The translations under genes were made by a program, and so were the position numbers. A stretch of DNA of 64,000 nucleotides, taken from contig NC_017770.1 in assembly GCF_000242635.2 (NCBI RefSeq), positions 1,240,001 to 1,304,000 on the forward strand. The letters run 5' to 3'. Positions 33,854 through 54,678 of the stretch are shown here, one piece after another; the stretch's first letter is position 1, and each line of letters opens with the position of its first letter. The notes beneath the pieces were generated by a model, which worked only from the letters and a program-made list of their open reading frames with translations, was not told the origin of the DNA and searched no databases. This DNA is from Solitalea canadensis DSM 3403 (GTDB taxonomy: Bacteria; Bacteroidota; Bacteroidia; Sphingobacteriales; Sphingobacteriaceae).

Positions 33854-34417
33854 ATGAGCAATAACTATAGCTATCCGGAGCTAATTCAGGAAAAAACTAC
33901 ATTAATTCTCCACACGAAAAGGTTGATCTTAGCACCTTTTACATTGGAACTTGCTCAAGCGGTTGATGAAGGTTATTATGATGAACTTATTAAAGCCGGG
34001 TATAATTTAGGATTTGGCTGGCCTGATGAAGAAACGTTAGAGACTATCCCTAAAATCATTAAGAATATTGAGGTAGTGGGGGAGCCTACCGGATTTGAAT
34101 CATGGATGATTATTAGGAAAGATAATAATTCGATTATTGGAGATATAGGATTTAAAGGTATACCAGCTGATGATGGAGTTATTGATATTGGATATGGAAT
34201 CATTGAAGCAGAACGCAAAAAAGGCTTTGCGGTTGAAGCTGCTCATGCTTTGATAGAATGGGCGATAGAACAACCTCAGGTAAGGCTAATTACTGCCAAA
34301 TGCCTAACCCATAATTTTGCCTCACGCAAAATACTAACACGTGTTGGCTTTATTGAAATAAAAAAAATTGATGGAATCATTTATTGGGAATGGAAGGGAA
34401 AAGGGATTAGCAAATGA
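33854..34417 (+). CDS. GNAT-family N-acetyltransferase
   Basis: A 187-residue acetyl-CoA-dependent transferase of the RimJ-like type. TKRLILAPFTLELAQAVDEG is the typical N-terminal strand-helix. IIGDIGFKGIPADDGVIDIG and YGIIEAERKKGFAVEAAHAL contain the acetyl-CoA-binding loop (ERKKGFA in place of R/Q-xxG-x-G/A). NFASRKILTRVGFIEI is the C-terminal signature. Members acetylate ribosomal proteins, antibiotics or small amines; the substrate is not evident. It appears monocistronic. Confidence 0.85.
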   Translation: MSNNYSYPELIQEKTTLILHTKRLILAPFTLELAQAVDEGYYDELIKAGYNLGFGWPDEETLETIPKIIKNIEVVGEPTGFESWMIIRKDNNSIIGDIGFKGIPADDGVIDIGYGIIEAERKKGFAVEAAHALIEWAIEQPQVRLITAKCLTHNFASRKILTRVGFIEIKKIDGIIYWEWKGKGISK

Positions 34418-34452
34418 GAAAAGGGATTTAGCAAATAGTACATCCTCTCAAA

Positions 34453-34593
34453 TCCGTTGGTTGAAACCAACGGCAATGAAGTCTTTTCTAATTTGTTATC
34501 ATGCAAAAACTTTATTGCCGTCAGCTTTAGCTGTATTATACTATTGTTATTTTATCATGCAAAGACTTCATTGCCGTCAGCTTCAGCTGACGG
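34453..34593. repeat. BIME-like hairpin repeat cluster, three copies
   Basis: An inverted copy at 34453-34487 (stem CCGTTGGTT/AACCAACGG) is followed by direct copies at 34503-34534 (AGCTTTAGCT, decayed) and 34559-34593 (CCGTCAGCTTCAGCTGACGG). All share the flank GCAAAGACTTCATTGCCGT. The stems differ in sequence but keep pairing. The same family forms the array at 54312-54656. The remaining sequence to 34995 is AT-rich with no gene recognised. Confidence 0.85.
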
Positions 34594-34995
34594 AGAGATA
34601 GATAATTCTCCTCATAAATATTATTCCTCACAAACATTACTCTTCATAAATAATTCTCCCCACAACTATTCCCATTTAATAATATCGTCAATCCATAAAC
34701 TAATCTTTTCATAGTATTCAATTTATAATTCATGATTTTTTTCTGAGAGATGGGTTTATCTCTGTTTTACTTGGTGGTAATGATTAATATGTTGGTACAG
34801 AGCGATCTGTGGTGATTTTTTGCCTAACGGATAGTATTTCAGGAAAAGGTTAGTGTATATGCTACACTTTTGTTACCTTGACAATCTGATATTCTCAAAA
34901 AATCAATTTAAAATTACAGCAGTAATATCAGGTAACGACCAATTTAAGCAATGACACCTGAACTGTCGTTGTTAACACTAATTCTACTACACGTT

Positions 34996-36441
34996 ATGAA
35001 TAAAAGAGTAACTCTTGCGGCTATTTTTGCAGTAACCTGTCTTACGACGCAGGCTCAGCAAAAATTTAACTCAAATGGTAAAAAAGTAACTGTCTACACC
35101 ACTGCTCAGCAAACGGATCTTCGTCTATCAGAAAACGGTAAGCTTGATTTTCAGACATTCCCTCAACCGTTGGAAACACAAGTTTTTGTATTGTTAGATC
35201 CTTCAAAGACTTTTCAAACAATTGAAGGAATTGGAGGTGCATTAACGGATGCTTCTGCGGAGACGTTTGCAAAGCTTCCTGCTGCTGTTCAAAAAGAGTT
35301 CCTAACCGCATATTACGATAAGGATAAAGGAATTGGTTATACCTTGGCACGAACCAATATTAATAGCTGTGATTTTAGTAGTGGAAGTTACACTTACGTA
35401 AAAGATAATGATACTGAATTAAAAACATTCGATATTGCTCACGATAAACAATATAAAATTCCCCTGATCAAACAAGCTACTGTAGCAGCAGGAGGTACAT
35501 TAAAATTATATGTAAGTCCGTGGAGTCCACCTGCATGGATGAAAGATAATAACAATATGCTGCAAGGAGGAAAGCTACTTCCTCAATACCGACAGTCATG
35601 GGCAAACTATTTTGCAAAGTTCATCAAGGCTTATGAAGCACTAGGGATTCCTGTTTGGGGATTAACCGTTCAAAACGAACCTATGGCAAAACAGACATGG
35701 GAATCATGCATTTATACAGCAGAAGATGAACGTGATTTCATCAAAGGATATTTAGGCCCAACTTTGCATAAAGAAGGATTAGCAAGTAAAAAATTAATTG
35801 CCTGGGATCATAACCGCGACCTTATTTATCAGCGAGCAAGTACTATTTTAAATGACAAAGCTGCTGCAAAATATGTTTGGGGAATTGGGTTTCATTGGTA
35901 TGAAACATGGAACGGTGGGGTAATGCAGTTTGATAATGTTAAAAAAGTGAATGAGGCCTATCCTGATAAACAGTTAATTTTTACAGAAGGATGCAAAGAG
36001 CTGTTCGATATTACGAAAGTGGACGACTGGACACTGGGTGAACGCTATGGCTATTCAATAGTTAACGACTTTAATAGTGGCACCGCTGCGTGGACAGACT
36101 GGAACGTTCTTTTGGATGAAACCGGTGGTCCTAACCATGTAAAGAACCTTTGTTTTGCACCAATTCATGCTGATACCAAAGCAGGTAAACTTATTTATAC
36201 TAACGCATATTACTACTTGGGGCATTTTTCAAAATTTGTTCGTCCAGGGGCGAAACGCATTGCGAGTTCATCCAATCGTGATCAGCTGTCGACTACAGCT
36301 TTCATCAATCCTGATGGGAAAATAGCCGTAATTGTTTTAAATCGCTCAAATGACCAATTGGCTTACAATTTAGCCATAGAGGGTAAAGCAGTGGCTACAA
36401 CCAGTTTACCGCATTCAATAACAACATTTGTAATCGAATAA
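34996..36441 (+). CDS. GH30 glycosidase (glucosylceramidase / beta-1,6-glucanase type)
   Basis: A 481-residue exported enzyme with a (beta/alpha)8 barrel and side beta-domain. The signal peptide is LAAIFAVTCLTTQAQQ. The acid/base Glu is in LTVQNEPM near residue 227 and the nucleophile Glu in IFTEGCKE near 329; FQTIEGIGGALTDASAE and VSPWSPPAWMKDN are standard GH30 landmarks. GH30 subfamilies include endo-beta-1,6-glucanases acting on fungal walls. I start at ATG 34996, directly before the signal peptide; ATG 34951 adds 15 residues. It is first in a GH30-GH30-GH5 run. No SusC/SusD pair is adjacent. Confidence 0.93.
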   Translation: MNKRVTLAAIFAVTCLTTQAQQKFNSNGKKVTVYTTAQQTDLRLSENGKLDFQTFPQPLETQVFVLLDPSKTFQTIEGIGGALTDASAETFAKLPAAVQKEFLTAYYDKDKGIGYTLARTNINSCDFSSGSYTYVKDNDTELKTFDIAHDKQYKIPLIKQATVAAGGTLKLYVSPWSPPAWMKDNNNMLQGGKLLPQYRQSWANYFAKFIKAYEALGIPVWGLTVQNEPMAKQTWESCIYTAEDERDFIKGYLGPTLHKEGLASKKLIAWDHNRDLIYQRASTILNDKAAAKYVWGIGFHWYETWNGGVMQFDNVKKVNEAYPDKQLIFTEGCKELFDITKVDDWTLGERYGYSIVNDFNSGTAAWTDWNVLLDETGGPNHVKNLCFAPIHADTKAGKLIYTNAYYYLGHFSKFVRPGAKRIASSSNRDQLSTTAFINPDGKIAVIVLNRSNDQLAYNLAIEGKAVATTSLPHSITTFVIE

Positions 36442-36529
36442 TTTTTCTTGCTATTGAGCAGGTGAAATTCATATAAGAAGTTTAATTTTTTGCATGAAAG
36501 CTATGAGGCTTTCATAGGAAGGTTCAAAA

Positions 36530-37933
36530 ATGAAAGTAATTATTAAAGCATGTTTGGCAACCGCAGTCTTAACAAGTGTTGCAACGTTAGGTTTTAGTCA
36601 GAAGAAAGGTATTGAAAGCTGGATTACCAGCCCCGAGAAATCCATTTTGTTTGAGAAACAAAAGGAAAATGTAAGTTTTGGAAAAAATACCAATGATTAT
36701 CCGACGATTGATGTAAACGCTAAACAAACCTATCAATCGATGGATGGGTTTGGTTACACTTTAACAGGAGGAAGTGCCGGACATTTTTTGAAAATGAGCC
36801 AATCTGCGCGGACAGCCTTGTTAAAAGAACTTTTTGGTACGGATGGTCATAATATTGGTACTAGTTTTCTTCGTGTAAGTATTGGAGCATCCGATTTAAA
36901 TGAAAAAGTCTTTTCATATAACGATTTGGCAGCAGGAGAAACAGATCCGGCAATGAAGAAATTTGATTTAGGGCAAGATAAAAAAGATGTAATTCCGGTG
37001 CTGAAGGAAATCCTGGCTATTAATCCTAAAATTAAAATATTAGGCTCGCCATGGTCGCCACCTACATGGATGAAAACCAATAACGATACTCGCGGTGGCA
37101 GCTTAAAACCGGAATGGTATCAGGCCTATGCTTTGTACCTCGTTAAATATGTGCAGGCCATGAAAACGGAGGGAATTAATATTTATGCGATTACCGTTCA
37201 GAATGAGCCATTGCATCCGGGAAATAATCCAAGCTTGTTGATGTTAGCTCCTGACCAAGCCATCTTTGTTAAAACCGCTTTAGGCCCTGCATTTGAGAAA
37301 GCCGGAATTAAAACAAAAATTATTTTGTACGATCATAATTGTGATCGCCCAGACTATCCGATTTCTATCATGAACGATCCTGAAGCAAAAAAATATGTAG
37401 ACGGATCAGCATTCCATTTGTACGGGGGTAAAATTGACGCGTTAACAGAGGTACATAATGCACACCCTGATAAAAATCTCTACTTCACGGAACAGTGGGT
37501 AGGTGCGCCAGGCAATCTGAAAGAAGAACTTGATTTTCATATAAAAGATATGATTATCGGAGCCCCTCGTAACTGGAGTCGTACAGTTTTAGAATGGAAC
37601 ATTTCCAATAACCCTCAAAATACACCTTATACCGACAGAGGTGGTTGCGACAGGTGCTTGGGGGCAGTAACAATTGATAATGATAAAGTGACTAGAAATC
37701 CGGCATATTATACCATCGCGCATGCAGCTAAATTTGTTCGTCCGGGATCGGTTCGTATTGCTTCAAATACATCTGAAGAACTTCCGAATGTGACCTATAA
37801 AACTCCGTCAGGAAAATATGTAGTGATAGCATACAACAATAAATCGGAGGCTCAAACATTTAATATCAGGTTTAATAATCAGATTGCTACCTTAACCCTG
37901 GATGGAAAAGCTGCCGCAACGTATGTTTGGTAA
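36530..37933 (+). CDS. GH30 glycosidase, second paralogue
   Basis: A 467-residue exported enzyme (signal peptide cut near LGFSQ). The acid/base Glu is in ITVQNEPLH near residue 223 and the nucleophile Glu in YFTEQWVG near 318. YQSMDGFGYTLTGGSAGHFL and LGSPWSPPTWMKTN confirm the family. It is clearly diverged from the gene upstream (HLYGG against HWYETWNGG around the barrel centre), so the two probably differ in specificity rather than being a recent duplication. It is 88 bp after the first GH30 gene and 6 bp before the GH5 gene. Confidence 0.93.
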   Translation: MKVIIKACLATAVLTSVATLGFSQKKGIESWITSPEKSILFEKQKENVSFGKNTNDYPTIDVNAKQTYQSMDGFGYTLTGGSAGHFLKMSQSARTALLKELFGTDGHNIGTSFLRVSIGASDLNEKVFSYNDLAAGETDPAMKKFDLGQDKKDVIPVLKEILAINPKIKILGSPWSPPTWMKTNNDTRGGSLKPEWYQAYALYLVKYVQAMKTEGINIYAITVQNEPLHPGNNPSLLMLAPDQAIFVKTALGPAFEKAGIKTKIILYDHNCDRPDYPISIMNDPEAKKYVDGSAFHLYGGKIDALTEVHNAHPDKNLYFTEQWVGAPGNLKEELDFHIKDMIIGAPRNWSRTVLEWNISNNPQNTPYTDRGGCDRCLGAVTIDNDKVTRNPAYYTIAHAAKFVRPGSVRIASNTSEELPNVTYKTPSGKYVVIAYNNKSEAQTFNIRFNNQIATLTLDGKAAATYVW

Positions 37934-37939
37934 CAGTTT

Positions 37940-39706
37940 ATGAAAAAATCCTTATTCAAAATAATGGACAGCAACAAGAAACTAATGAGCATGGTATTTA
38001 TCATGCTCTTTTTTATTCCTTTCTGTGGATATACCCAAGGCTTCCTGAAAGCCAATGGAAAAATCATAGTAAACGAAGGTGGTAATAAAGTAATCCTTCG
38101 AGGAATGGGTTTGGGAGGATGGATGTTACAGGAAGGCTATATGTTTCGGCTTTCCTCTTTTGGACAACAATATAAGATCAAGGAAAAAATTGAAGAACTG
38201 ATCGGGAAGGAAAAAACAGAGGAATTTTACAATAAATGGCTGACTAATCACACTACAAAGGCTGATATTGATTCATTAGCTAAATGGGGATTTAACTCTG
38301 TTCGGTTACCGATGCACTACGGATTGTATACTCTTCCTATTGAAAAAGAGCCTGTAGCAGGACAGAATACATGGATTGAGAAGGGTTTTACTGTGACAGA
38401 TAGCCTTTTAAGCTGGTGCAAGGCAAACAAACTTTACCTGATTCTTGATTTGCATGCCGCTCCGGGTGGACAAGGTCATGATCTTGCTATTTCCGACAGG
38501 GAGCCTGAAAAACCTTCTATTTGGGAAAGTGAAGCTAATCAGCAAAAAACCGTGGCTCTTTGGAGAAAACTTGCCGAACGTTATGCTAATGAAACATGGA
38601 TAGCGGGTTATGATATAATCAATGAACCCAACTGGGGCTTTACCGATCCTAAGGATAAAATTGGCAACCTTGAAAAAGAGAATAAACCCCTCCGAAAATT
38701 ATTGATTGATATCACAAGAGCAATCCGCGAGGTTGATCAAAAGCATATTATCATTATTGAAGGCAATGCTTTTGGTAATAACTACAATGGTATCATGCCT
38801 TTATGGGATAATAATTTAGTGGTGAGCTTTCATAAATATGGAAACTTCAATAATCTGGAGAGTATTCAGGGATTTCTCAATTTACAAAAGGAAAATAACA
38901 TGCCACTTTGGTTAGGTGAATCTGGCGAAAACTCGAATACTTGGTTCACTGAATTGATTTCAATGGTTGAAAGTCATGATATCGGTTGGGCATGGTGGCA
39001 ATTGAAAAAGATGGGTGTTAATAATCCTTTGGAAATAAAGATCACCTCCGGTTACCAGCATTTATTGGATTATTGGTCAGGAAAAGCAGCCAGACCTACA
39101 CCAACTGAAGCTCTTGCCGCAATAGAAGAATTGGCTGAGAATCTGAGAATTGAACATAATATTTATCATAAGGACGTTATTGATGCGTTGTTCAGGCAAG
39201 TCAAGACTACTGAAACCAAGCCTTTTCAGCATATACTGATCAAAACAGGAACAGTCGTTAATGCGGTTGATTATGACTTGGGACGACAGCGTTTTGCCTA
39301 CTATGATACCGATACGGCAAGTTATCATTATACACCCGGAGTTAATACAGTAGGTAATAAGGGGCGTTCATATAGGAATGATGGTGTCGACATTCAGAAA
39401 AGGGAAGATGGTTATTATGTTTATTCAATAGAAAGCGGCGAGTGGTTGCAATATACACTGAATGTTGAAAAAGGAGGCGTATACACTGTTAAACTAATTG
39501 TTTCTGCTGGTGTGGATAGTGGTGAAATTACCATTAATCATAACGGAATAATTGAAAAAGCCATTTCAATACCAAATACAAACGCGAGATGGACAAACGT
39601 CACTTTTAAATATATAAAATTAAAAGCCGGCAGCAATAAGCTTGTGGTAATGGCAAATAAGGGTGGTTACGATTTTAAAGGCATTCAGTTTGATCGGATA
39701 AAGTAA
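37940..39706 (+). CDS. GH5 endo-glucanase with C-terminal CBM6-like domain
   Basis: A 588-residue exported enzyme. The signal region is MVFIMLFFIPFCGYTQG. A GH5 barrel spans about 40-390 with VILRGMGLGGWML, the acid/base Glu in DIINEPNWG near 227 and the nucleophile in LWLGESGENS near 325. Residues 440-588 are a beta-sandwich with EWLQYTLNVEKGGVYTVKL and GSNKLVVMANKGGYDFKGIQ, typical of CBM6. Relatives include exo-beta-1,3- and beta-1,6-glucanases. Grouping with two GH30 genes suggests fungal or yeast glucan breakdown. Six bases separate it from the upstream stop. Confidence 0.9.
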   Translation: MKKSLFKIMDSNKKLMSMVFIMLFFIPFCGYTQGFLKANGKIIVNEGGNKVILRGMGLGGWMLQEGYMFRLSSFGQQYKIKEKIEELIGKEKTEEFYNKWLTNHTTKADIDSLAKWGFNSVRLPMHYGLYTLPIEKEPVAGQNTWIEKGFTVTDSLLSWCKANKLYLILDLHAAPGGQGHDLAISDREPEKPSIWESEANQQKTVALWRKLAERYANETWIAGYDIINEPNWGFTDPKDKIGNLEKENKPLRKLLIDITRAIREVDQKHIIIIEGNAFGNNYNGIMPLWDNNLVVSFHKYGNFNNLESIQGFLNLQKENNMPLWLGESGENSNTWFTELISMVESHDIGWAWWQLKKMGVNNPLEIKITSGYQHLLDYWSGKAARPTPTEALAAIEELAENLRIEHNIYHKDVIDALFRQVKTTETKPFQHILIKTGTVVNAVDYDLGRQRFAYYDTDTASYHYTPGVNTVGNKGRSYRNDGVDIQKREDGYYVYSIESGEWLQYTLNVEKGGVYTVKLIVSAGVDSGEITINHNGIIEKAISIPNTNARWTNVTFKYIKLKAGSNKLVVMANKGGYDFKGIQFDRIK

Positions 39707-39735
39707 GTTAGATTCAGGTTTTAAACGGTAATCCT

Positions 39736-39756
39736 CAATTCGCGATTCGCGAATTG
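39736..39756. repeat. Perfect palindrome after the GH5 gene
   Basis: CAATTCGCGA, a central T, and TCGCGAATTG form 10-bp arms. It lies 30 bp after the GH5 stop at the edge of the pseudogene, so it could be an RNA hairpin ending the operon or a remnant of an insertion event. Confidence 0.5.
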
Positions 39757-39758
39757 AA

Positions 39759-40270
39759 ATATCGCCAGAAGTTCGCCATACTGAGGATGTTGATGTTGTA
39801 ATTGAACTTGCCAGTTATGCAGATTATTCCATTTTAGATGAAAAGCTTAGAGCTATTGGATTTATTAATGATATAGAATCTGGTATAATTTGCAGATACC
39901 GGATACAGGGCATCTATCATGCCAACCACTCCCGATGCAATTGGTTTTAGTAATAAATGGTATCCAGATGGACTCAAACATGCAATCCAAAATACGCTCT
40001 TGATGAAGGTAACTAGATATCAATTTTTTCGTTGCCATATTTTATAGCAGCAAAATTAGAAGTGTATTGGAAAATGCAGAGAACTTGTTTGAAAAATTGA
40101 ATGATGTCTCTGAAAAATTAAGTAGCTATTTAATAGATGAATTCAAAAAGTTACTAAATGATCCTGATTTTGAGGAAGGTTTATATGCACACTTAGAGTT
40201 TAAAACTGCCCAATTTAAAAGTCAGGAGATTATCAATATTCTATCTAAACTCATAACTGCCTCCAATTAA
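39759..40270 (+). pseudogene. Decayed AbiEii-type nucleotidyltransferase-like gene
   Basis: Three frames carry pieces of one protein family. Frame at 39759 reads ISPEVRHTEDVDVVIELASY through LRAIGFINDIESGIICRYRI. A frameshift near 39917 continues at 39919 with IMPTTPDAIGFSNKWYPDG. The third piece (40061-40270) reads VLENAENLFEKLNDV and a helical tail; the middle of the domain (AKLE to VLEN) appears deleted. The DVDV motif corresponds to the metal-binding Asp pair of nucleotidyltransferases related to AbiEii/AbiGii toxins. The N-terminus is absent. It is a broken, non-functional gene; family assignment is from memory of homologues. Confidence 0.6.
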
Positions 40271-40397
40271 ATAACTATTTTAGTTTGTTGAAGATTTTCT
40301 ACATTCTTTAACTTTAAAGAATATGCTTTCCGGATAAAGAAGCGTTATCAGTTTTTAGCATATAATTTGCCTGAACTACCTAAAAGAATAAGCAATT

Positions 40398-43300
40398 TTG
40401 AAAAAAGTGTTACGCTTTCTCTTAAAAACACTGCTATGGGTTTGTGCCCTAGTTGCTTTTCTATTGCTTTTGGTTTGCTTGGTTTTGTACGTTCCTGCTG
40501 TTCAAGGTTTTGTTAAAGACAAAGCTGTGGCTTTTCTGAAAAAAAAGACCAATACAGAAATACGTATTGAAAGTATTCATCTCAAATTTCCTAAATCAAT
40601 TGAACTTAAAGGTTTTTATGTTGAAGACCTGAAAAAGGATACACTGCTTTATGCCGGAAAACTGAAGGTGAATATTGGAATGTTGCAACTCTTGAATAAT
40701 AAAATCGATGTCCAACATGCTTCGTTAGAAAACCTAACAGCTCACGTTTACCGTAAACTACCCGATACAGCTTTTAACTTTGCCTTTATCACCAAAGCTT
40801 TTTCTTCGGCAGATACCGCTAAGAAAGAAACCGATACTTCCGAAAGTACGCCATTAACTTTTTCACTAGGGAAGATAGAACTGAAGAATATTTACCTTAC
40901 TTATGATGATGATGTTACAGGTAATGATGCCTTGCTTTATTTGGGTAAGCTGGAAACAACTATCAAAGACTTTTACCTGGAAAATCCAACCTATAGGATT
41001 GGTAAAATCCAATTAGAGAATGTTTCCGGACATTTATTTCAACGAAAAGGGTTGGAGGCAACTAAAGCAACTGAAAATGTGAAGGAGGATAATACCCCGA
41101 TGCCTGAAACCGGATTAGAGAAAATTGCGCTGTCAAATATTAACCTGTTGTATAAAGATGATGTATCAGGATTGGCTTCTGCTTTAAAAGTTGGTGATTT
41201 GACTGCTGATTTCAAGGAAATAGATCTTCAAAAACAAGTCGTTAGCATCAGGGATATAGCATTGAATAACGCATCGGCAATTGTTTCTTTGGATAAAGTT
41301 GACTCAACAGAAACGAAAAAGCCGGATAAACCAGAAACTTCTACAGCGACTAATTGGCAAGTCGGAATAAATAAACTTTCGGTGAAAAACACAGCACTGA
41401 AATATGATAACAATCCGGTAAAGCCAGTAACTCAGGGCATGGATTTTAATCACTTGCAGGTAACTGGTTTGTTGATTGATGTGGACGATATTCAGTATAG
41501 TTCAAATGCAATCAGTGCAGCGATTAATAACATCTCGTTTAATGAAAAGAGTGGGATTCGATTGCAGAGGTTGTCGGCCAATGCAATGTATGATAATCAA
41601 CATGCTGCATTGCATAATTTTAAACTGGTTACTAATTATACACAGATCGATAATTCATTGGAAGTTTCTTATCCTTCAATAGAAGCTGTTTCAAAAGACA
41701 TTGGTTTGTTAGGAGTAAATGCAGACATCAGGAATTTGAAGTTGGGTATTCGTGATGTGCTATATTTTCAACCACAACTTGCAGCAAATCCAGATTTTAA
41801 GAAAATTATCGACCAAGTAATTGTTATAAAAGGTTCGGTAAAAGGTAAGGTTAGTGATTTAACTGTGAGGGATTTTCTTCTCAATGCCGGAACACAAACC
41901 CAACTTTCGTTAAATGCCAATATAAAAGGCATGCCCAAAGCAACAAAAGGTGTTTTTGATATTGACCTGAAACAGTTTACCACCAGTAAATCAGATATTG
42001 ATCGCTTAGTTCCTGCTCATTATATATCTTCATCGGTACGAATTCCGGATAAACTTTCTTTAAGTGGAGATTTTAAGGGTTCAATGGAAAACTTTAAAAC
42101 CCATCTTCAGCTGCTGACCACTTCCGGGAATGCAAAACTTAACGCATTGATGCTGAATGGAAAAGCTGAAGGAGCTGAACGCTATACTGCCCATGTTGTT
42201 CTGGATCATCTCAATGTTGGCCAATTGCTCAAAAATGAAGAAACATTAGGAAGCATATCATTAGAGGCTTCATTGGTTGGAATCGGTACCACCGTCAATA
42301 CAGCTGATACGCAATTGAAAGGGATCATAAAAAGTGCCGGATTAAAAGGATATGACTATCGTAATTTAGATTTAGAGGCTTCTTTTAGAAACAAGGAATT
42401 GCAGGCTCAAGCGCAAATCGCAGATCCGAATGTGAGTTTTAATTTTAGAGGTTTGGTGAGTTTGCAGCAAAAATATCCAGCAATAAAGCTAAGCGGTATT
42501 ATTGATAGCATAAATCTTACTGCATTAAACTTAAGTGATAAAAATATTAAGTTCAGAGGTGAAATTAATGCTGATTTACCTTCAGCAGATGTCGATTATT
42601 TAAATGGCCGGGTAGATCTTTTTAACTTCCTGGTGTTAAAAGAAAAACAATCGTTTCCAATTGACTCTATTCAACTGGTGGCAAAAAGCACTGCAGATAG
42701 CAACAGGATCGATCTTCAATCACCCATTATTACAGCTACACTTAAAGGAAAATACCAACTCTCAAAACTGGGAGATGCTATTGATCAAATAGTAAGTAAG
42801 TACATTAATCAGTCGTCTACAGTTGAAGCTCAAAAAGGAAAAACAGAACCCCAGATTGCTGAGCTGAATGCTGTTTTAGTATATCCTAAGTTCCTAAAAG
42901 AACTGCTTCCGTCGCTCTCTCGTTTTCAAACAGGCTATATTAAGGCCAATCTAAATTCACAGCAAGGTCAGCTAAGTGTAAATGCCAATTTCCCGATGAT
43001 TACTTATAGTAATATTGCTATAGATAGTTTGAAACTTAATATAAAAACAGATTCAGCGAAGCTTTCTTATAATCTTTCGTTAGAACAATTGACTCATCCC
43101 GAAATTACTATTCATGCAACTCAGATTTCTGGCGATGCAAAAAATAATATGGCAACAATCAATTTGAGTGTCAAGGATGATAAAGATAAAGAAAAGTATT
43201 TCATGGAGGTGCAATTAAAGGCATTGAAGAGTAAATACGAGTTTGTATTGGGCAAAAAGCTATTGCTCAACTATGAAAACTGGCAAGTGTCTGAAGATAA

Positions 43301-45500
43301 CAAGATCAACTACGCTCCCACCAGTTTAATTGTTAATAAGCTCAAAATCGCTCAGAACGAAGAATCACTAACCATTGATTCACAAGAGGGAACTGCTGGT
43401 ACGCCATTAACGGTTACATTTAATCAATTTAATCTGGAAACGCTTTCTAAAATAGCTGAACAGGATAGTGCTGCTGTAAGTGGTGTTTTAAACGGGAATG
43501 CATTGATTGAAAATGTAATGAGTAGTCCTGTTTTTGTTGCGGATTTAAAGGTGGAGACGTTCAGGTTTAAATCCAGCAAGGTGGGTGATATAACTATTAA
43601 AGTAAATAATAAGCAAGCCAATGCGTATGTTGCTAATGTGAGTATAACCGGAGAAGGCAATGATGTGCAGCTGGATGGAACTTACTTCACACAACCTCAA
43701 AGCTCATTTGATTTGAATCTTGCCATTAACAAGCTCAACATGAGTTCGGTGGAGAGTTTTACTTTCGGACAGCTACGAAATGCCACCGGGACAATTAATG
43801 GAAACCTTTTGGTAAAAGGTACCGTTGATCAGCCGGATGTTAATGGATCGGTAACATTTAATCGGACCGGTTTTATCCTTTCTTATCTCAATTCTTACTT
43901 TACACTGCGTAATGAGCGTATCCAATTTGATGATCAGGGAATCAAATTTGATCAGTTTACTATTAGTGATTCTGCCAGAAATGATGCTGTAATTGATGGT
44001 TATGTATACACCAGAACGTTCCGTGATTATAAGTTCGGACTCCACGTTACAACTGATAATTTTAGGGCTTTAAATACAAAGCAAAATAACAACGACTTGT
44101 ATTATGGTCCGGTTTACATTGATAGTGATATTAAAATAACCGGTACGATTGATCAGCCTAAGGTAGATGTTAACGCTAAACTTCGTGAAAAATCAATACT
44201 TACTGTTGTATTGCCAACCGGCACTCCAAGTGTTGTTGACAGAGAAGGTGTTATTGAATTTGTAGATATGGATCTTATCCGAAAGGGTATTTATTTAACC
44301 TATGAAGATCCGGATACAACCGTTGCCAGAACAACCTTTAAGGGTTTTGAGTTGAGCGCCAATATCGAAGTTGATAAAGATGCTGAACTAGTGCTCATAA
44401 TTGATCAGCAAAGCGGAGATAATCTTCGTGTTAAGGGTACAGCGTTGATGAATGCCACCATGGACTTAAGTGGCAAACTAAGTCTGACTGGCACTTACCA
44501 GATCAGCGAAGGTGCTTATAATCTGTCAATTTCCGGAATCGTAAGGCGAAAATTTGATATTAAAGAAGGTAGCAGCATCACGTGGACCGGAGAGCCGACT
44601 TCAGCAAACGTTGATATAACAGCTGTTTATAAAACAGAAACCTCTGCCATGGAACTATTTGAAAGTCAGGTGGCATCAGGAACTGCCGAAGATAAAAACA
44701 AGTATAAGCAAAAGCTTCCATTCGAGGTTGAATTGTACATCAAGAATGAATTAATGCATCCTGAAATTTCCTTTGCGCTAGATATTCCTGAAGAGGAACG
44801 TACTCGTTACGCTATCAGTACCAATGTTTACAATCGTATTAAGCAGATCAACCTCGATGAGTCGGAATTAAATAAACAGGTTTTGGGGCTGTTGGTGATG
44901 AACCGATTCATCGCGTCCAATCCGTTTAGCAGCTTAGAAGGTGGGGGAAGTGGTGTAGAAGGCATAGCACGCCAAAGCGCCAGTAAATTACTGAGCCAAC
45001 AACTGAATAATCTGGCCGGCGACCTCATTAAGGGAGTTGACCTGACTTTTGATTTGCAGAGTGAGGAAGACTACTCTAGTGGTCAGCTTGAAAACCGGAC
45101 AGATTTAAATGTAGGTGTATCTAAGCAATTGTTTGGAGGGCGTACCACTGTGTATGTAGGAAGTAATTTTGAATTGGAAGGCGAAGAAGTTTCTAACCGT
45201 AAAACTACCAATATTGCCGGCGACGTATCTATCGAGTACCTTATTTCCAGAGATGGCAGATATAAACTGCGGGCTTATCGAAAAGATGAATATGAAAGTA
45301 TTATTGAAGGCCAGGTAATTGAAACGGGACTTAGTTTTATATTAACAATGGACTATGATAAGTTTAAAGAGCTTTTTCAAAAGAGTAAAGACAAATCGAA
45401 AAAGAAAGGAAAGCGTTCGGGAAGAAAAAGAAATGAGGCTACAGAGATAAAATCAGATACATTAAAAAGTCGGCAGTCAAATTCTGGGGGTAATAACTAA
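40398..45500 (+). CDS. tamB: TamB-like inter-membrane protein
   Basis: A 1700-residue protein anchored by one N-terminal helix (FLLKTLLWVCALVAFLLLLV). The long middle is AsmA/TamB-like beta-rich repeats (such as LKVNIGMLQLLNNKIDVQHA). The C-terminal 350 residues form the TamB/DUF490 domain (VDVNAKLREKSILTVVLP, LSLTGTYQISEGAYNLSISG). TamB-type proteins bridge inner and outer membranes as a lipid or autotransporter conduit with an Omp85 partner. The tail (SKDKSKKKGKRSGRKR) is unusually basic. The start is TTG at 40398. It overlaps the Omp85 gene by one base (TAATG), so translation is coupled. Confidence 0.9.
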   Translation: MKKVLRFLLKTLLWVCALVAFLLLLVCLVLYVPAVQGFVKDKAVAFLKKKTNTEIRIESIHLKFPKSIELKGFYVEDLKKDTLLYAGKLKVNIGMLQLLNNKIDVQHASLENLTAHVYRKLPDTAFNFAFITKAFSSADTAKKETDTSESTPLTFSLGKIELKNIYLTYDDDVTGNDALLYLGKLETTIKDFYLENPTYRIGKIQLENVSGHLFQRKGLEATKATENVKEDNTPMPETGLEKIALSNINLLYKDDVSGLASALKVGDLTADFKEIDLQKQVVSIRDIALNNASAIVSLDKVDSTETKKPDKPETSTATNWQVGINKLSVKNTALKYDNNPVKPVTQGMDFNHLQVTGLLIDVDDIQYSSNAISAAINNISFNEKSGIRLQRLSANAMYDNQHAALHNFKLVTNYTQIDNSLEVSYPSIEAVSKDIGLLGVNADIRNLKLGIRDVLYFQPQLAANPDFKKIIDQVIVIKGSVKGKVSDLTVRDFLLNAGTQTQLSLNANIKGMPKATKGVFDIDLKQFTTSKSDIDRLVPAHYISSSVRIPDKLSLSGDFKGSMENFKTHLQLLTTSGNAKLNALMLNGKAEGAERYTAHVVLDHLNVGQLLKNEETLGSISLEASLVGIGTTVNTADTQLKGIIKSAGLKGYDYRNLDLEASFRNKELQAQAQIADPNVSFNFRGLVSLQQKYPAIKLSGIIDSINLTALNLSDKNIKFRGEINADLPSADVDYLNGRVDLFNFLVLKEKQSFPIDSIQLVAKSTADSNRIDLQSPIITATLKGKYQLSKLGDAIDQIVSKYINQSSTVEAQKGKTEPQIAELNAVLVYPKFLKELLPSLSRFQTGYIKANLNSQQGQLSVNANFPMITYSNIAIDSLKLNIKTDSAKLSYNLSLEQLTHPEITIHATQISGDAKNNMATINLSVKDDKDKEKYFMEVQLKALKSKYEFVLGKKLLLNYENWQVSEDNKINYAPTSLIVNKLKIAQNEESLTIDSQEGTAGTPLTVTFNQFNLETLSKIAEQDSAAVSGVLNGNALIENVMSSPVFVADLKVETFRFKSSKVGDITIKVNNKQANAYVANVSITGEGNDVQLDGTYFTQPQSSFDLNLAINKLNMSSVESFTFGQLRNATGTINGNLLVKGTVDQPDVNGSVTFNRTGFILSYLNSYFTLRNERIQFDDQGIKFDQFTISDSARNDAVIDGYVYTRTFRDYKFGLHVTTDNFRALNTKQNNNDLYYGPVYIDSDIKITGTIDQPKVDVNAKLREKSILTVVLPTGTPSVVDREGVIEFVDMDLIRKGIYLTYEDPDTTVARTTFKGFELSANIEVDKDAELVLIIDQQSGDNLRVKGTALMNATMDLSGKLSLTGTYQISEGAYNLSISGIVRRKFDIKEGSSITWTGEPTSANVDITAVYKTETSAMELFESQVASGTAEDKNKYKQKLPFEVELYIKNELMHPEISFALDIPEEERTRYAISTNVYNRIKQINLDESELNKQVLGLLVMNRFIASNPFSSLEGGGSGVEGIARQSASKLLSQQLNNLAGDLIKGVDLTFDLQSEEDYSSGQLENRTDLNVGVSKQLFGGRTTVYVGSNFELEGEEVSNRKTTNIAGDVSIEYLISRDGRYKLRAYRKDEYESIIEGQVIETGLSFILTMDYDKFKELFQKSKDKSKKKGKRSGRKRNEATEIKSDTLKSRQSNSGGNN

Positions 45501-47812
45501 TGTATTTAAGGAGACATACATATCATACCATTGGTCCAGTTGCCTTAATTAAAGTTTTATTATTGCTGATGGGAGGGATACTGTTCGTTGGGTGTAGTAA
45601 TACACGTTATTTGCCCAAGGGAGAAAAGCTTTTTACTGATTTGAATGTAAAGTTTGAAAAACACACTAAAAGTAAAGTAAAAACTTCCACCTTAGCGGAA
45701 ATGGTGCGTCCCCAGCCTAATAGTAAAATATTAGGAATGCGGGTAAAATTATACGCCTACAACATTGCCAAAGAACCCAAAGGCAAAGGGCTCAATTATT
45801 TTTTAAAGAAGAAGTTTGGAGAACCTCCTGTTTTATTTAGCAGCGTTAACTTAAAACGTAATATCGATGTGTTAACCAATTACCTGGAAAACCAGGGCTA
45901 TTTTAATGCAACTGTTAATGCGGATACAGTAGATAGACGTAAGCGGGTAACGGTTACCTTTACCGTAAACCCCGGAGACCGGTATAAAATTAAAGAAGTA
46001 GTATTTCCGAGCGATTCAGATTCATTGAATACCTATATCCGTGAAACTGCAAAACAAACGCTGCTGAAAAAAGGTGACCCATTTATTTTTGAGATTATTA
46101 AGGAAGAACGTGTTCGGATTGATGCTGAGCTTAAGGAAAAGGGATATTTCTACTTTGGTCCGGATTACCTGATTATGCAGGTCGACAGTTCTCACCGGAA
46201 TAATACCGTTAACATTTATATAAAAGTAAAAAAGGATGCTCCCGACAAAGGGCTGCATACCTATCGCATTAATAATATTAATATTTTTCCGAACTATTCT
46301 GCAGATCAAGATAGTTCCGTCGATTTAAAAAATGCCACCGTATATGAGGGCTATAACATAGTTGATCCCAACAAAACGTTTAGACCCATAACCTTTGATC
46401 GTTCCATTTTCCTGGAAAAGAACAAACTTTATACACGTAAAGATCACAATCTGTCGTTAAACAGATTGGTTAACCTAGGTGCATTCAAATTTGTAAAACT
46501 GCAACTTACAGATGTCGACAGCATTTCACGCTTGCTTAACGCTGATTTCTATCTTACTCCTTCACCTAAAAGATCATTGCGTTTTGAAGTAACAGGAACC
46601 TCAAAATCTAACAGCTATGTGGGGTCCGAACTTAAAGTGGAAGCCCGTAACCGAAACTTTTTACGTGGTGCAGAGCAATTTAATTTAAGTGTTGCAGGAG
46701 GTTTTGAAACACAGGTAAACGGTAGCGCCCCGGCATTAAATTCTTATTCATTAACTACTGAAGCAAGTTTGTTTTTTCCTCGGTTTATAACACCTATTCC
46801 TAGAATTAATGAAGCGGGTGCTTTTGCACCCAAAACGAAAGTATCAGCCAGTTATCAAATCTTAACCCGACAAGAGTATTATACCCTTAATTCGGCCAGT
46901 TTAATTTTTGGCTATAACTGGAAAGAGTCGACCCGTAAAGAGCATACATTTAATCTCGTTTCTATAAGCTATGTGCAGCCGTCAAATACCACTGCAAAGT
47001 TCGATAGTTTGCTGCTAACTGATCCCACCTTGCAGACGAGCTTTATGAAGCAGTTTATTATTGGGACCAATTATAATTATATTCTTACCAATCAGTTAGA
47101 AACAAGAAGAGTTAATAATTTTTACGTGAATGCCAATATTGATCTGGCTGGTAATCTAATGGGGTTACTGATAGGTGGTAAGGAATCTGCTGAAAACCCG
47201 GGAAAGATTTTTGGCACTCCATTCTCTCAGTATGCACGGGCATATGTTGATGGTCGGTATTATTGGAACTTCCGCCCTAATGTTACCTGGGCCAATCGTA
47301 TGTTTATGGGCTTTGGTTATGCTTATGGCAACTCATCGGCCATGCCTTACCTAAAACAGTTTTATAGTGGAGGTAGTAATAGCGTGCGTGGTTTCAGAGC
47401 CCGAACCTTGGGGCCGGGTACTTTTCCGCCTGAAACCGATGCTACTTTTCCTGATCAGGCTGGCGATATAAAATTTGAGTTGAATACTGAGTTAAGGGCA
47501 AAGCTGTTTAGTGTTGTCAGAGGAGCTGTTTTTGTGGATGTAGGTAATATCTGGCTGGTAAATGAGAATCCGCAAATACCCGGAGGCAAGTTCAGGGCTG
47601 GTCAATTCTTTAATGAGCTGGCTGTAAGTGCAGGCGCCGGTTTACGTATTGATGTATCTGTTTTTGTATTACGGTTTGATGGAGCTTTTCCGCTTCGTAA
47701 GCCTTATTTGCCCGATGGACAACGGTGGGTAATTGATGAAATCGATTTTGGTAGCAAGCAATGGCGAAATGATAATTTGATCTTGAATATTGCTATTGGT
47801 TATCCATTCTAA
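45500..47812 (+). CDS. tamA: Omp85-family outer-membrane protein (TamA/BamA-like), lipoprotein-type N-terminus
   Basis: A 770-residue outer-membrane protein. The signal region ends in GGILFVGCSNT, a probable lipobox. POTRA-like domains span about 60-380 (YLENQGYFNATVNADTVDRR, LKEKGYFYFGPDYL). The barrel has the Omp85 loop-6 motif in GGSNSVRGFRARTLGPG near 623 and ends in the terminal Phe of IAIGYPF. Coupling with the TamB gene marks it as the TamA-like partner rather than the essential BamA. The symbol is a functional analogy, since Bacteroidota Omp85 subfamilies differ from proteobacterial TamA. Confidence 0.9.
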   Translation: MYLRRHTYHTIGPVALIKVLLLLMGGILFVGCSNTRYLPKGEKLFTDLNVKFEKHTKSKVKTSTLAEMVRPQPNSKILGMRVKLYAYNIAKEPKGKGLNYFLKKKFGEPPVLFSSVNLKRNIDVLTNYLENQGYFNATVNADTVDRRKRVTVTFTVNPGDRYKIKEVVFPSDSDSLNTYIRETAKQTLLKKGDPFIFEIIKEERVRIDAELKEKGYFYFGPDYLIMQVDSSHRNNTVNIYIKVKKDAPDKGLHTYRINNINIFPNYSADQDSSVDLKNATVYEGYNIVDPNKTFRPITFDRSIFLEKNKLYTRKDHNLSLNRLVNLGAFKFVKLQLTDVDSISRLLNADFYLTPSPKRSLRFEVTGTSKSNSYVGSELKVEARNRNFLRGAEQFNLSVAGGFETQVNGSAPALNSYSLTTEASLFFPRFITPIPRINEAGAFAPKTKVSASYQILTRQEYYTLNSASLIFGYNWKESTRKEHTFNLVSISYVQPSNTTAKFDSLLLTDPTLQTSFMKQFIIGTNYNYILTNQLETRRVNNFYVNANIDLAGNLMGLLIGGKESAENPGKIFGTPFSQYARAYVDGRYYWNFRPNVTWANRMFMGFGYAYGNSSAMPYLKQFYSGGSNSVRGFRARTLGPGTFPPETDATFPDQAGDIKFELNTELRAKLFSVVRGAVFVDVGNIWLVNENPQIPGGKFRAGQFFNELAVSAGAGLRIDVSVFVLRFDGAFPLRKPYLPDGQRWVIDEIDFGSKQWRNDNLILNIAIGYPF

Positions 47813-47882
47813 CTTCATTCTACTTGCTTAAGTTGTAGGCAGTTGAGTTTGGGGGTGGTATGTTTTTTGAAACTATTACCTT

Positions 47883-48701
47883 ATGAAACAAGTGCCTGAT
47901 AATAAAGCGATAAGCACAGTTGAGATGGTCTTACAATATGTGCCGTTAACGTTTCAAAATTTCCTTACCGAACTTGGAGGTATGCTTCAGTTCACAGGGT
48001 ACTTTTTGAAGAATACCTTTAAAAGGGGATTTGAATGGACGGAATTTTTACGGCAGAGCTATGAGATCGGCTACCGCTCTATTGGTTTAGTTTCTCTAAC
48101 AGCCTTTATCATGGGGTTGGTTCTCACACTTCAATCACAACCTACATTATCAGATTTTGGAGCTGAATCTTGGCTTCCGGGTATGGTATCTATTTCTATC
48201 GTTCGGGAGATTGGTCCTGTAATAACTTCTTTGATTTGTGCTGGACGAGTAGCCTCCGGTATTGGGGCTGAATTAGGTAGTATGAAAGTAACAGAACAGA
48301 TTGATGCCATGGAAGTTTCAGGTTCTAATCCGATGAAATACCTGGTTGTAACACGTATTTTGGCCTCTACAGTAACTATTCCTTTATTGGTCATACTTTC
48401 TGATGCGATCTCATTTGTTGGTGGTTATGTGGCGGTCAATATCAATTCAGATATGAGTGCGATTCTTTTCTTTAGCAAAGCCTTTGATTCACTTGATTTT
48501 ACTGATTTAATCCCGGCCTTTATCAAAAGTGTGTTGTTCGGGTTTACCATTGGTTTTATCGGTTGTTTTAAAGGTTATAACGCCAATAGTGGTACCGAAA
48601 GCGTTGGTGCCGCCGCAAATTCTGCAGTGGTAACTTCTTCCATCTGCATATTTTTAATAGACATGATAGCGGTACAAATAACCAATGTATTGTATGCATA
48701 A
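47883..48701 (+). CDS. mlaE: MlaE-type ABC transporter permease
   Basis: A 272-residue inner-membrane permease of the MlaE family, with five to six hydrophobic segments. Landmarks are LTAFIMGLVLTLQSQPTLSD, SISIVREIGPVITSLICAGR, IGAELGSMKVTEQIDAMEV and IGFIGCFKGYNA. In E. coli MlaFEDB moves phospholipids between the inner membrane and periplasmic carriers. The stop overlaps the next start by one base (TAATG). It is 70 bp after the Omp85 gene. Confidence 0.93.
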   Translation: MKQVPDNKAISTVEMVLQYVPLTFQNFLTELGGMLQFTGYFLKNTFKRGFEWTEFLRQSYEIGYRSIGLVSLTAFIMGLVLTLQSQPTLSDFGAESWLPGMVSISIVREIGPVITSLICAGRVASGIGAELGSMKVTEQIDAMEVSGSNPMKYLVVTRILASTVTIPLLVILSDAISFVGGYVAVNINSDMSAILFFSKAFDSLDFTDLIPAFIKSVLFGFTIGFIGCFKGYNANSGTESVGAAANSAVVTSSICIFLIDMIAVQITNVLYA

Positions 48702-49504
48702 TGAGCAGTAGTAAGCAACATATTGAACCAAAAGTAAGTCCACAGGCGGAAGATACTCTTGAAAAAGTATTGGAGATCAAACATCTTTCAAAGTCTTTTG
48801 GAGAAAAAGTAGTGCTGAAAGACATCAATCTTGAGCTTTGGAAAGGAGAAAATTTGGTAATGTTGGGGAAATCTGGCCACGGTAAGTCGGTGTTAATCAA
48901 GTGTATAGTTGGTTTGTTGACTCCCGAAAGTGGTGTGCTTAAGGTTTTTAATCAAGAGGTAACTGACTTAAATGAAGATGAACTGCTCGCTTTAAGAAAA
49001 AGAATCGGCTTTCTGTTTCAAAATTCGGCTTTGTATGACTCCATGTCGGTTCGGGAAAATCTTGAATTTCCTTTACAGCGGCAGAAGGAGAATCTTAATA
49101 AAGAAGAAACCGATTCATTGGTCAAAGAGGTGTTGGATGCAGTAGGATTAACGGATGCAATTGATAAAATGCCGGCCGACCTATCAGGAGGGATGCGAAA
49201 GAGAGTGGCCCTTGGCAGAACGCTTATACTTAAACCGGAGATTATGCTTTATGACGAACCAACAACAGGCCTTGATCCGATCACAGCTGCTGAAATAAGT
49301 GAGCTGATACTTGAGGTGCAAAAGAAATACAACACATCTTCCATTATCATTACGCATGACCTGGCTTGTGCACGTACAACGCATAATCGTATTGTGGTGC
49401 TTAAAGAGGGTGAATGCATAGCTGAAGGGTTATTTGAAGAATTGGAAAAATCAGATGATGAATTTGTGCATTCATTTTTTGATAACGTTAGATCATATGG
49501 ATAA
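48701..49504 (+). CDS. mlaF: MlaF-type ABC transporter ATPase
   Basis: A 267-residue cytoplasmic ATPase. Walker A is GKSGHGKS, the Q-loop region FLFQNSALYDSMSV, the signature LSGGMRKRVALGR, Walker B IMLYDEPTTGLDP and the H-loop ITHDLACAR. About 25 extra N-terminal residues (EPKVSPQAEDTLEK) precede the core. Overlaps both neighbours: by one base with mlaE and by eight bases with mlaD, so the three are translated together. Confidence 0.94.
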   Translation: MSSSKQHIEPKVSPQAEDTLEKVLEIKHLSKSFGEKVVLKDINLELWKGENLVMLGKSGHGKSVLIKCIVGLLTPESGVLKVFNQEVTDLNEDELLALRKRIGFLFQNSALYDSMSVRENLEFPLQRQKENLNKEETDSLVKEVLDAVGLTDAIDKMPADLSGGMRKRVALGRTLILKPEIMLYDEPTTGLDPITAAEISELILEVQKKYNTSSIIITHDLACARTTHNRIVVLKEGECIAEGLFEELEKSDDEFVHSFFDNVRSYG

Positions 49505-50237
49505 TGTAAAGAAAATAAAACTGGGCTTTTTTGTGCTTTTAACATTCCTGTTAATTGTTGTGGCTGTTTTTATGATTGGTCGTAATCAAAAGTTGTTTAG
49601 CAGTACTTTTTACGTTACAGCTTTCTACAAAAATATTGGAGGGTTACAGGTTGGCAATAATGTGAGATTTTCGGGAATTACCGTAGGTATTGTAGAACGG
49701 ATAGAACTGGTAACTGATAGCACAGTGCGGGTGGACATGCAAATTGAGGAAAAAGTGAGAAAGTTTATTAAAAGGGATGCCGTTGCAAGTATAGGATCGG
49801 AAGGTTTAATGGGCGACAAAATGATCGTTATTACTCCCGGTAAAATTTCTTCGCAACCGATTCAGCCCGGAGGAAGATTGATAAGTGCAGAACCCATGGA
49901 TATGGACAAAATCATCAACCAAATTGGAGATATAGCTGGAAATGCATCGCAAATTACAAATGATTTGGCGGCAATAACTGGGCAAGTCACCAAAGGAAAA
50001 GGTTCTCTTGGCCGTTTGATTTATGATGATGAAATAGCAGATGATATAAAGGGAACGATGAAGAATGTAGAAAAGGGTACTAAAGGATTTGAGGAAAATA
50101 TGAATGCCCTAAAAAGTAATTTTTTACTCAGAGGATATTACAGGAAAAAGGAAAAAGAAACTCAAAAACAAAAAGAAAGAAAAGTTGATAGTCTACAGAA
50201 ATCAAAAGAAAATGACAACGAAAAGAACCGGGATTGA
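49497..50237 (+). CDS. mlaD: MlaD-type MCE-domain protein
   Basis: A 246-residue periplasmic protein anchored by an N-terminal helix (LGFFVLLTFLLIVVAVFMIG). An MCE domain at 38-118 reads FYKNIGGLQVGNNVRFSGIT, VGIVERIELV and GSEGLMGDKMIVI. After it comes a helical, charged tail (QKQKERKVDSLQKSKE). MCE proteins form the lipid-binding ring of Mla complexes. I start at ATG 49497, which overlaps the mlaF stop by eight bases; an upstream in-frame TTG at 49434 would run through the mlaF gene. Confidence 0.92.
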   Translation: MDNVKKIKLGFFVLLTFLLIVVAVFMIGRNQKLFSSTFYVTAFYKNIGGLQVGNNVRFSGITVGIVERIELVTDSTVRVDMQIEEKVRKFIKRDAVASIGSEGLMGDKMIVITPGKISSQPIQPGGRLISAEPMDMDKIINQIGDIAGNASQITNDLAAITGQVTKGKGSLGRLIYDDEIADDIKGTMKNVEKGTKGFEENMNALKSNFLLRGYYRKKEKETQKQKERKVDSLQKSKENDNEKNRD

Positions 50238-50328
50238 GTCCAAAAAGTTAACCGTTATTTAGAGTCGCTCTAATAATGCTTTTTATTATAAAACGTGTTC
50301 GATAGTTTATTACCAAATCAATAATAAC

Positions 50329-50703
50329 ATGGAAGAGGAAAAAATATTTCAGTTACATAGTTTAACCGACAAATTGAAACGACAATTGGAATTGAAGATT
50401 GATCTTTTGACACTTCAGGTTAACGAAAATGTAGCCAAGGCGGCAGCAACCATTATCACAAGAGGTATTTTGATAGTAATAATGCTTTTGTTCGTGGTAT
50501 TTGCTACCATAGGGCTTGCATTTTACTTAGGCACACTATATAATAGTCTATGGCAAGGTTTTTTGGTAGTGGCAGCAGGTTACCTACTAATAGGGTTAAT
50601 CACTTTCTTCATAAAGGACGGTATCGTAGAAAAACCGTTGGTCAATGTGTTTATAAGAATATTATTTAAATCAAAAAATGATGAGCAGGCTAAGCAAAAT
50701 TGA
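50329..50703 (+). CDS. Small membrane protein, phage-holin-like (DUF1469-type)
   Basis: A 124-residue protein with an amphipathic N-terminal helix (LHSLTDKLKRQLELKIDLL) and two transmembrane helices (ITRGILIVIMLLFVVFATIGLA and WQGFLVVAAGYLLIGLITFFI), separated by a short polar turn. This is the layout of proteins annotated as putative Actinobacterial Holin-X or phage holin family. In a non-phage setting such proteins are of unknown role. It overlaps the next gene by 26 bp, so the two are a unit. Confidence 0.7.
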   Translation: MEEEKIFQLHSLTDKLKRQLELKIDLLTLQVNENVAKAAATIITRGILIVIMLLFVVFATIGLAFYLGTLYNSLWQGFLVVAAGYLLIGLITFFIKDGIVEKPLVNVFIRILFKSKNDEQAKQN

Positions 50704-51019: not shown

Positions 51020-51040
51020 AAGGCCGTAAAAACGACCTTT
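51019..51040 (+). terminator. Weak terminator after the envelope operon
   Basis: AAAGG-C-CGT and ACG-A-CCTTT pair with one internal mismatch around AAAA. It overlaps the stop codon of the 50678-51019 gene; the T-run is short. Confidence 0.4.
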
Positions 51041-54311: not shown

Positions 54312-54656
54312 GTTCCATTCGCTAAAGCGGAACGGCAATGAAGTCTTTTTGAGACTGATAATTTAAGGGATTAGCAAAGACTTCATTGCCGTTGGCTTTA
54401 GCCAACAGAAGAGAGAATAAATAACTCTTTTTGCGACCGAAAATTTAAGGAGTTCGCAAAGACTTCATTGCCGTTGGCTTTAGCCAATAGAAGAGAGAAT
54501 AAATAACTTTTTTTGAGACCGAAAATTTAAGGGGTTAGCAAAGACTTCATTGCCGTTGGCTTTAGCCTATAAAAGAGAGGATAAATAACTCTTTTTTAGA
54601 CTGAAAATTTAAGGGGTTAGCAAAGACTTCATTGCCGTTGGCTTTAGCCAACGGAA
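54312..54656. repeat. BIME-like array: one inverted copy and four 82-bp direct units
   Basis: An inverted hairpin copy (54312-54349) is followed by four units starting at 54374, 54456, 54538 and 54620, exactly 82 bp apart. Each has GCAAAGACTTCATTGCC, a hairpin GTTGGCTTTAGCCAAC-type, and an AT-rich linker (AATTTAAGG). The last copy has the full palindrome CCGTTGGCTTTAGCCAACGG; earlier copies have small arm decays. Short remnants of GGCTGAAGCC appear at 54280-54292. It occupies nearly all of the 409-bp gap between the ligase and helicase genes. Confidence 0.9.
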
Positions 54657-54678
54657 GAAAATAAAAAGAAATAAGGAA

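Follow-up and report, generated by a model that had tools for sequence, protein, structure and literature searches.

What kind of element is a short hairpin that recurs at two distant places of one bacterial chromosome, with a similar flank and changing stems, and what spreads it? The question arises from a 64-kb stretch of Solitalea canadensis DNA (the window, by which we mean the whole stretch analyzed), in which the original prediction saw paired hairpins that are comparable to the BIMEs mobilized by RAYT transposases in Escherichia coli. Here we describe a repeat family that is scattered between genes in S. canadensis and related Bacteroidota, that adjoins a gene for a small single-strand DNA transposase, and that is probably spread by this enzyme.

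Two hairpin clusters in the window

The window holds eight copies of the repeat, some of them decayed, grouped into one intergenic cluster near 34.5 kb and another near 54.5 kb. Each unit consists of a foot, CTTCATTG, and, directly after it, a hairpin whose stem is 8 bp long and whose loop is TTYA. In the window copies the stem opens with CCGT and, when intact, closes with ACGG, and the loop is TTTA or TTCA. In window coordinates, the features are:

34454..34481, minus strand: REP-like copy; foot CTTCATTG and perfect 8-bp stem CCGTTGGT/ACCAACGG, loop TTCA; folding z -4.82
34510..34537, plus strand: decayed copy; CTTTATTGCCGTCAGCTTTAGCTG, 3'-side stem base gone
34566..34593, plus strand: REP-like copy; foot and perfect stem CCGTCAGC/GCTGACGG, loop TTCA; folding z -4.79
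54315..54343, minus strand: imperfect copy; foot and CCGTTCCGC TTTA GCGAATGG, one surplus stem base
54344..54665, plus strand: 82-bp tandem array; four copies, one plus-strand hairpin in each
54381..54408, plus strand: REP-like copy; CCGTTGGC TTTA GCCAACAG, one stem-base change
54463..54490, plus strand: REP-like copy; CCGTTGGC TTTA GCCAATAG, two changes
54545..54572, plus strand: decayed copy; CCGTTGGC TTTA GCCTATAA
54627..54654, plus strand: REP-like copy; perfect stem CCGTTGGC/GCCAACGG, loop TTTA; folding z -5.36

That hairpins recur beside a common flank at two distant loci is borne out: with up to three mismatches, GCAAAGACTTCATTGCCGT matches nine times in the window against 0.01 expected, eight of the nine matches lie inside the two clusters, and stems and flank are as first described. 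The constancy of the flank holds in part. Its recurrence is far above chance, but the exact 19-mer is unchanged in only five of the eight copies, and the four plus-strand copies between 54.4 and 54.65 kb share the 82-bp tandem repeat and so are not independent evidence. What is common across genomes is about seven bases, approximately TTCATTG, with variants including TTAATTG, TCCATTG, and TTTATTG, in a base profile that was built on stretches retrieved with CTTCATTGCCGT and is biased toward it. Pairing at both loci needs a similar qualification: the three perfect copies form 8-bp stems as single-stranded DNA (z -4.8 to -5.4), but in two plus-strand copies the 3' side has decayed, another two carry one or two changes, and the minus-strand copy at 54315-54343, with its extra base, gives no significant fold when folded minus its last base (z -0.32). 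The head-to-head order was seen correctly, since a minus copy precedes plus copies in each cluster, with their feet facing each other.

A difference in gene content was noted between the clusters. In the congener G003, only about 320 bp separate the genes matching 34951-39706, which begin with a GH30 glycosidase gene, from the Lhr-type helicase gene that comes next (54679 in the window), so that the 15-kb stretch from 39700 to 54300 is missing at that place. This stretch holds TamB, Omp85, MlaE, an ABC ATPase, an ATP-dependent DNA ligase, and a weak metallo-beta-lactamase-fold match; at its right-hand end, between the ligase and helicase genes, lies the second hairpin array.

Copies across the S. 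canadensis genome

Far from being confined to two loci, the element recurs throughout the 5.2-Mb genome, where exact CTTCATTGCCG occurs 40 times; five of these 40 sites (337, 1027, 1029, 1277, and 3058 kb) have no hairpin. With one mismatch allowed, the 11-mer matches 165 times, compared with 71 for its reversed control, while exact ACTTCATTGCCGT matches 16 times and its reversed control not at all. Copies lie at 1274, 1294, 1943, 2496, 2541, 2708, 3012, 3219, 3389 (11 in tandem), and 4200 kb. The array at 3388.9-3390.2 kb (L057:2001-3263) consists of 11 head-to-tail copies spaced 116-126 bases apart; the 3' stem half is damaged in ten of them, and the last is perfect.

Nearly all hairpin-like copies that were scored are intergenic (39/40, outside ORFs of at least 120 residues), a count that covers nine stretches, namely the window itself plus eight others retrieved at sites of the exact 11-mer. 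Hairpins so placed, some of them within same-strand gene runs in which they would be transcribed, might be regulatory RNAs or terminators under selection on the transcript, with no part for a transposase. We regard such a role as very improbable: terminator-like sites, taken as a stem followed by a T-run, number zero in a scan of the first cluster (34400-34960), and the conserved unpaired foot, the bursts of copies, their inverted pairing, the tandem arrays, and the link to one transposase clade would all go unexplained.

No clean empty site was found for either window locus in three congeners and in the comparison of L257-L259; aligned identity with the congeners is only about 65-73% and intergenic DNA is unaligned, such that no insertion junction is readable. 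A scan for a phage or virus origin turned up 26 stretches among 2.9 million viral contigs, and a 34-base sequence had no match in phages.

Covariation, loop, and arrangement

The claim that compensatory changes reveal selection for pairing is upheld by other genomes. The search pattern imposed no sequence on the four inner stem pairs or on the third position of the loop. The 173 copies from named genomes contain 33 distinct inner stems, in which 106 of 132 cells are paired, compared with a shuffle mean of 47.9 (sd 6.5, maximum 73 in 5000). Thirteen of the 33 pair at all four inner positions, and a further 15 at three. S. canadensis alone, where 23 of 24 cells pair against a shuffle mean of 13.1, is not decisive because it offers only six distinct stems and shuffles also reach 23. 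Loop sequences are TTTA in 134 named copies, TTCA in 37, and TTAA in two, hence TTYA in 171 of 173.

Neighboring copies also keep a preferred orientation. At the named loci, copies within 200 bp of each other are inverted in 130 of 151 cases, a count in which two are a single palindrome read on both strands and which includes long arrays in Mucilaginibacter psychrotolerans. Most feet-inward spacers (61/71) measure 22-65 bases, and the feet-inward pairs often combine two stem types, for example CGGT with CCCA. Within S. canadensis the inversion bias is weak (7 of 13 neighboring pairs).

Two variants deserve mention. One subtype, CCGTCTGC TTTA GCTGACGG, has a T-T mismatch at stem pair 6; it makes up 18 of the 173 named copies and two of 11 in S. 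canadensis, and recurs in L086, L175, L210, L225, and L054, which hints at a mismatch that is either tolerated or read. Separately, an element of about 300 bases, around 80% alike in three Mucilaginibacter genomes (L072:3851-4156, L109:5463-5759, and L171:6542-6857), carries a copy of the hairpin in L072 and L109 at least, and may represent a larger mobile element.

A Y1 transposase beside the repeats

Two Y1_Tnp genes are present in the S. canadensis genome. The first, a Y1 (HUH) gene at G000:C1:2708911-2709303, lies just downstream of a cluster of six repeat copies that includes a 272-bp duplication, so that the look-up proposed at the outset did yield a candidate enzyme. Its H53-x-H55 and Tyr113 are invariant across 25 aligned proteins, and 24 of the 25 read Y---Q--HH; the resident protein reads Q--HP where an off-frame tail begins. 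Relative to its homologs, the gene is off-frame after KHP (Y---Q--H), and the conserved C-terminal tail, missing from the product, is visible in another frame, which suggests that the resident transposase may be impaired or inactive at present.

Family models and predicted structure place the enzyme. The resident protein passes the NCBIfam model NF033573 transpos_IS200 (62.6 bits, cut-off 55) and fails NF047646 REP_Tyr_transpos (32.6 bits, cut-off 80). A predicted model of the Mucilaginibacter rigui relative, built from a six-row alignment (mean pLDDT 78), scores Z about 12-13 against IS200-type structures, ISDra2 and IS608 among them. Against 4ER8, the REP transposase of E. coli, the score is Z 10.2, from an alignment that is longer but looser. 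Judged by its sequence, the transposase belongs with TnpAY1 subclass 1.2, an IS200-like group of which Quentin et al. 2018 (PMC6006769) give Y---Q--HH as the signature, and not with the E. coli-type RAYTs.

The second Y1 gene (L059:2792-3256; G000:C1, near 5116.8 kb) is 33% identical to the first. Several GC-rich, CTCCGGAGC-like palindromes lie downstream of it, possibly as its own repeat family.

Insertion sequences of the IS200/IS605 type carry a single subterminal hairpin at either end, both on one strand; IS608 and ISDra2 are autonomous elements of this design. The transposase and its nearest hairpins could likewise form an ordinary insertion sequence, with the dispersed hairpins as solo or non-autonomous ends. 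The IS200 model match and the fold of the relative would fit, and for a number of genes the hairpins do stand at fairly similar distances on either side. Flanks are often inverted, and at some genes they point the same way. Several genes, though, have inverted hairpin pairs on each side instead of a single end; most adjacent dispersed copies at the named loci are inverted; and each of the ten genomes with a gene at least 59% identical has one close copy, the second S. canadensis gene being too divergent to count as another. We therefore think an ordinary insertion sequence quite unlikely.

Co-occurrence of gene and repeat

The hairpin pattern, with at most one mismatch, was scanned in 395 Bacteroidia genomes. 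It occurs in seven of the ten genomes with a gene at least 59% identical to the resident one (S. canadensis included), compared with 17 of the other 385 (Fisher 1.3e-7), and the five repeat-richest genomes of the class (20, 24, 46, 30, and 16 matches) are all among those ten. The association is imperfect in both directions. The 17 other genomes comprise eight with a relative at 36-53% identity, one (G036) with a broken relative, and eight with none at E<=1e-20; three of the latter (G232, G365, and G404) have six to seven matches and no relative at that threshold, which speaks against strict dependence on the gene. Conversely, G159, G123, and G041 have a relative and zero pattern matches, G159 with a variant beside its gene. 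A reversed control pattern gave single matches in four of the 395 genomes, so some single matches reflect chance. Neither gene nor repeat was found in the three congeners.

Among named genomes, a scan returned at least 119 stretches, at least 75 from Mucilaginibacter and the rest from Adhaeribacter, Pedobacter, Cytophaga, Emticicia, various MAGs, and others. Among the matches listed, the gene lies within 500 bp of the repeat in seven of 119 stretches, compared with about 0.2 expected if there is one gene per 4.5 Mb. In Adhaeribacter soli, the transposase gene (L086:4437-4868) is inside a hairpin cluster; in the syntenic place of Adhaeribacter terrigena (L175), hairpins are present and the transposase is absent.

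Some of the copies, in the window as at 3389 kb, are explained by tandem duplication, and one could suppose that the repeats now multiply by host processes only—slippage, or template switching at hairpins—and that the association with the transposase is a relic. The 82-bp and 11-copy arrays, the 272-bp duplication beside the gene, the off-frame resident gene, and the copies in genomes with no detectable relative all lend themselves to such an account. We consider it unlikely as a whole, since 16 or more pattern matches occur only together with a close relative of the gene, and open-frame genes in Mucilaginibacter and Adhaeribacter adjoin near-uniform hairpins. It overlaps with spread by the transposase as far as the past is concerned, and our odds for the explanations accordingly do not sum to one.

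Hairpin type follows the transposase tree

We analyzed the flanks of 58 fetched Y1 genes, these being the best matches, with the duplicates L064, L068, and L111 (of L209, L211, and L180) dropped, and scored hairpins with a 4-base TTYA loop and at least seven pairs within 400 bp. Among the 42 relatives that are at least 40% identical, 33 have such hairpins: 22 of the 27 genes at 40-57% and 11 of the 15 at 58% or above. Below 40% identity, one gene of 16 does. These identity groups were set with the data already in view. Seventy-three lie near the genes and three far from them, in about 45 and 105 kb, respectively. With the loop left free, TTYA still makes up 146 of 170 near entries (both strands counted). 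Relaxed pairing raises the gene counts to 15/15, 26/27, and 3/16, with 14, 14, and 7 far hairpins as background; because of this higher background, we prefer the strict count.

The stem base differs by clade—CCGT near the window's enzyme, and CAGT, CCAC, CCCC, CTCC, or CCTC elsewhere—and it follows the transposase tree. On a tree of 39 proteins, 38 of them labeled, from which the short or broken L213, L095, L206, and L196 and all genes below 40% identity were left out, the stem base changes 16 times, compared with 21-25 in 300 shuffles and a minimum possible of 13 for 14 label types. The foot is more restricted: ATTG is commonest in 11 of 13 CCGT, two of three CAGT, and two of four CCAC genes, and in none of eight CCCC or CTCC genes, and thus belongs to part of the family only.

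Genes below 40% identity have strong hairpins nearby in seven of 16 cases, nearly all of other designs, at 1.36 per kb compared with 0.04 per kb further away. Two of the more distant relatives, L208 and L191, are flanked by far longer perfect palindromes with 13-19 bp stems and a TCATAGC-like core.

A proposed mechanism

The reading that we favor, at a probability of roughly 80%, is that the repeats are REP-like elements: non-autonomous hairpins with an ATTG foot, an 8-bp stem, and a TTYA loop, often in inverted pairs, which are spread in single-stranded form by a dedicated Y1 (HUH) transposase of subclass 1.2 type encoded elsewhere in the genome. The hairpin would fold on single-stranded DNA, where the enzyme would recognize the loop (T1, T2, and A4) together with the stem base, and the ATTG foot would act as a guide selecting a nearby cut site. 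The strand would then be cut by Tyr113 and rejoined elsewhere, moving either single hairpins or inverted pairs. Inner stem positions 5-8 would be recognized as pairing and not as sequence, free to drift as long as they stay paired, which would account for the compensatory changes.

There is a precedent for both halves of this recognition. Corneloup et al. 2021 (PMC8266576) found that a REP transposase from Marinomonas depends on the first, second, and fourth bases (T, T, and A) of a TTTA loop but not on the third, and that cut sites shifted predictably when its GTAG guide was changed. Natural loop variation in the present family (TTNA) is the same as that TnpA-Mb requirement. Applied to ATTG, the published GTAG guide scheme would predict cleavage guided to a CA dinucleotide under both pairing schemes.

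Relation to known systems

Subclass 1.2 was described without a repeat partner, for which REP mobilization is now a likely role. Table 1 of Quentin et al. 2018 enters REP as "no" for this subclass; its section 12 names just subclasses 2.1 and 2.3 as having been searched for REPs in vain, which leaves the depth of the search behind the "no" uncertain (PMC6006769). Our search of the open-licence PMC literature found no paper on subclass 1.2 REPs or on this repeat. The present enzymes resemble the subclass as that source portrays it in their Y---Q--HH motif, length of about 140-150 residues, low copy number, and occurrence in Bacteroidetes—S. canadensis has its two Y1 genes, and relatives were found across the class. 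They differ in that a large same-motif clade is flanked by hairpins, which recur through the genome in the closest relatives.

Tentatively, and at a little short of even odds, we suggest that, in Bacteroidota, a class 1 lineage of IS200-like transposases independently acquired the mobilization of repeats. The subclass 1.2 enzymes would then constitute a second kind of REP transposase with its own code (an ATTG-type foot in the window's clade, a TTNA loop, and a clade-linked stem base), and IS200 and REP systems would be linked by a natural series. Seven of the 16 relatives below 40% identity have strong hairpins nearby, so REP association may turn out to extend to the subclass as a whole. The family suggests that REP-type systems can do without a GTAG foot. 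Its clade-varying foot and stem base, kept loop, and free inner stem amount to a natural experiment in hairpin reading and cut-site choice by Y1 enzymes, a matter that bears on retargeting single-strand transposases.

Among characterized systems, IS608 and ISDra2 TnpA provide the closest solved folds, and the resident protein passes the IS200 family model, but as autonomous elements with one hairpin per end IS608 and ISDra2 differ from the usual arrangement here. The atypical structures of TnpAY1 subclass 2.6, in the account given in PMC6006769, likewise occur in Bacteroidetes, lack a GTAG foot, and have copies elsewhere in the genome; their transposases are of a different class (YIH[QN]NP). 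REPtron Mb of Marinomonas sp. MWYL1 (PMC8266576) shares a perfect palindrome and the TTTA loop, but has a GTAG foot where ATTG stands here, and a group 3 TnpAREP (Y---NP class by the 2018 table) where our proteins read Y---Q--HH.

The parallel with E. coli BIMEs and their TnpAREP (subclass 2.2) survives in outline. Both families are short, dispersed intergenic palindromes in many copies, with inverted pairs (strongly so at the named loci, weakly in S. canadensis), often two stem types, and a Y1 gene flanked by the same repeats. Mobilization by that gene's product is probable here. The E. coli system differs in its GTAG foot, its long bulged stem, and its Y---NP enzyme. We looked for the GT[AG]G 5' foot that marks REP/RAYT systems and for the class 2 Y---NP motif, and found an ATTG foot, with other feet in more distant clades, and Y---Q--HH; for these reasons we do not file the family as a canonical RAYT system. 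It is instead a REP/RAYT kind of system that differs by its class 1 enzyme, its ATTG-type foot, and its TTNA loop.
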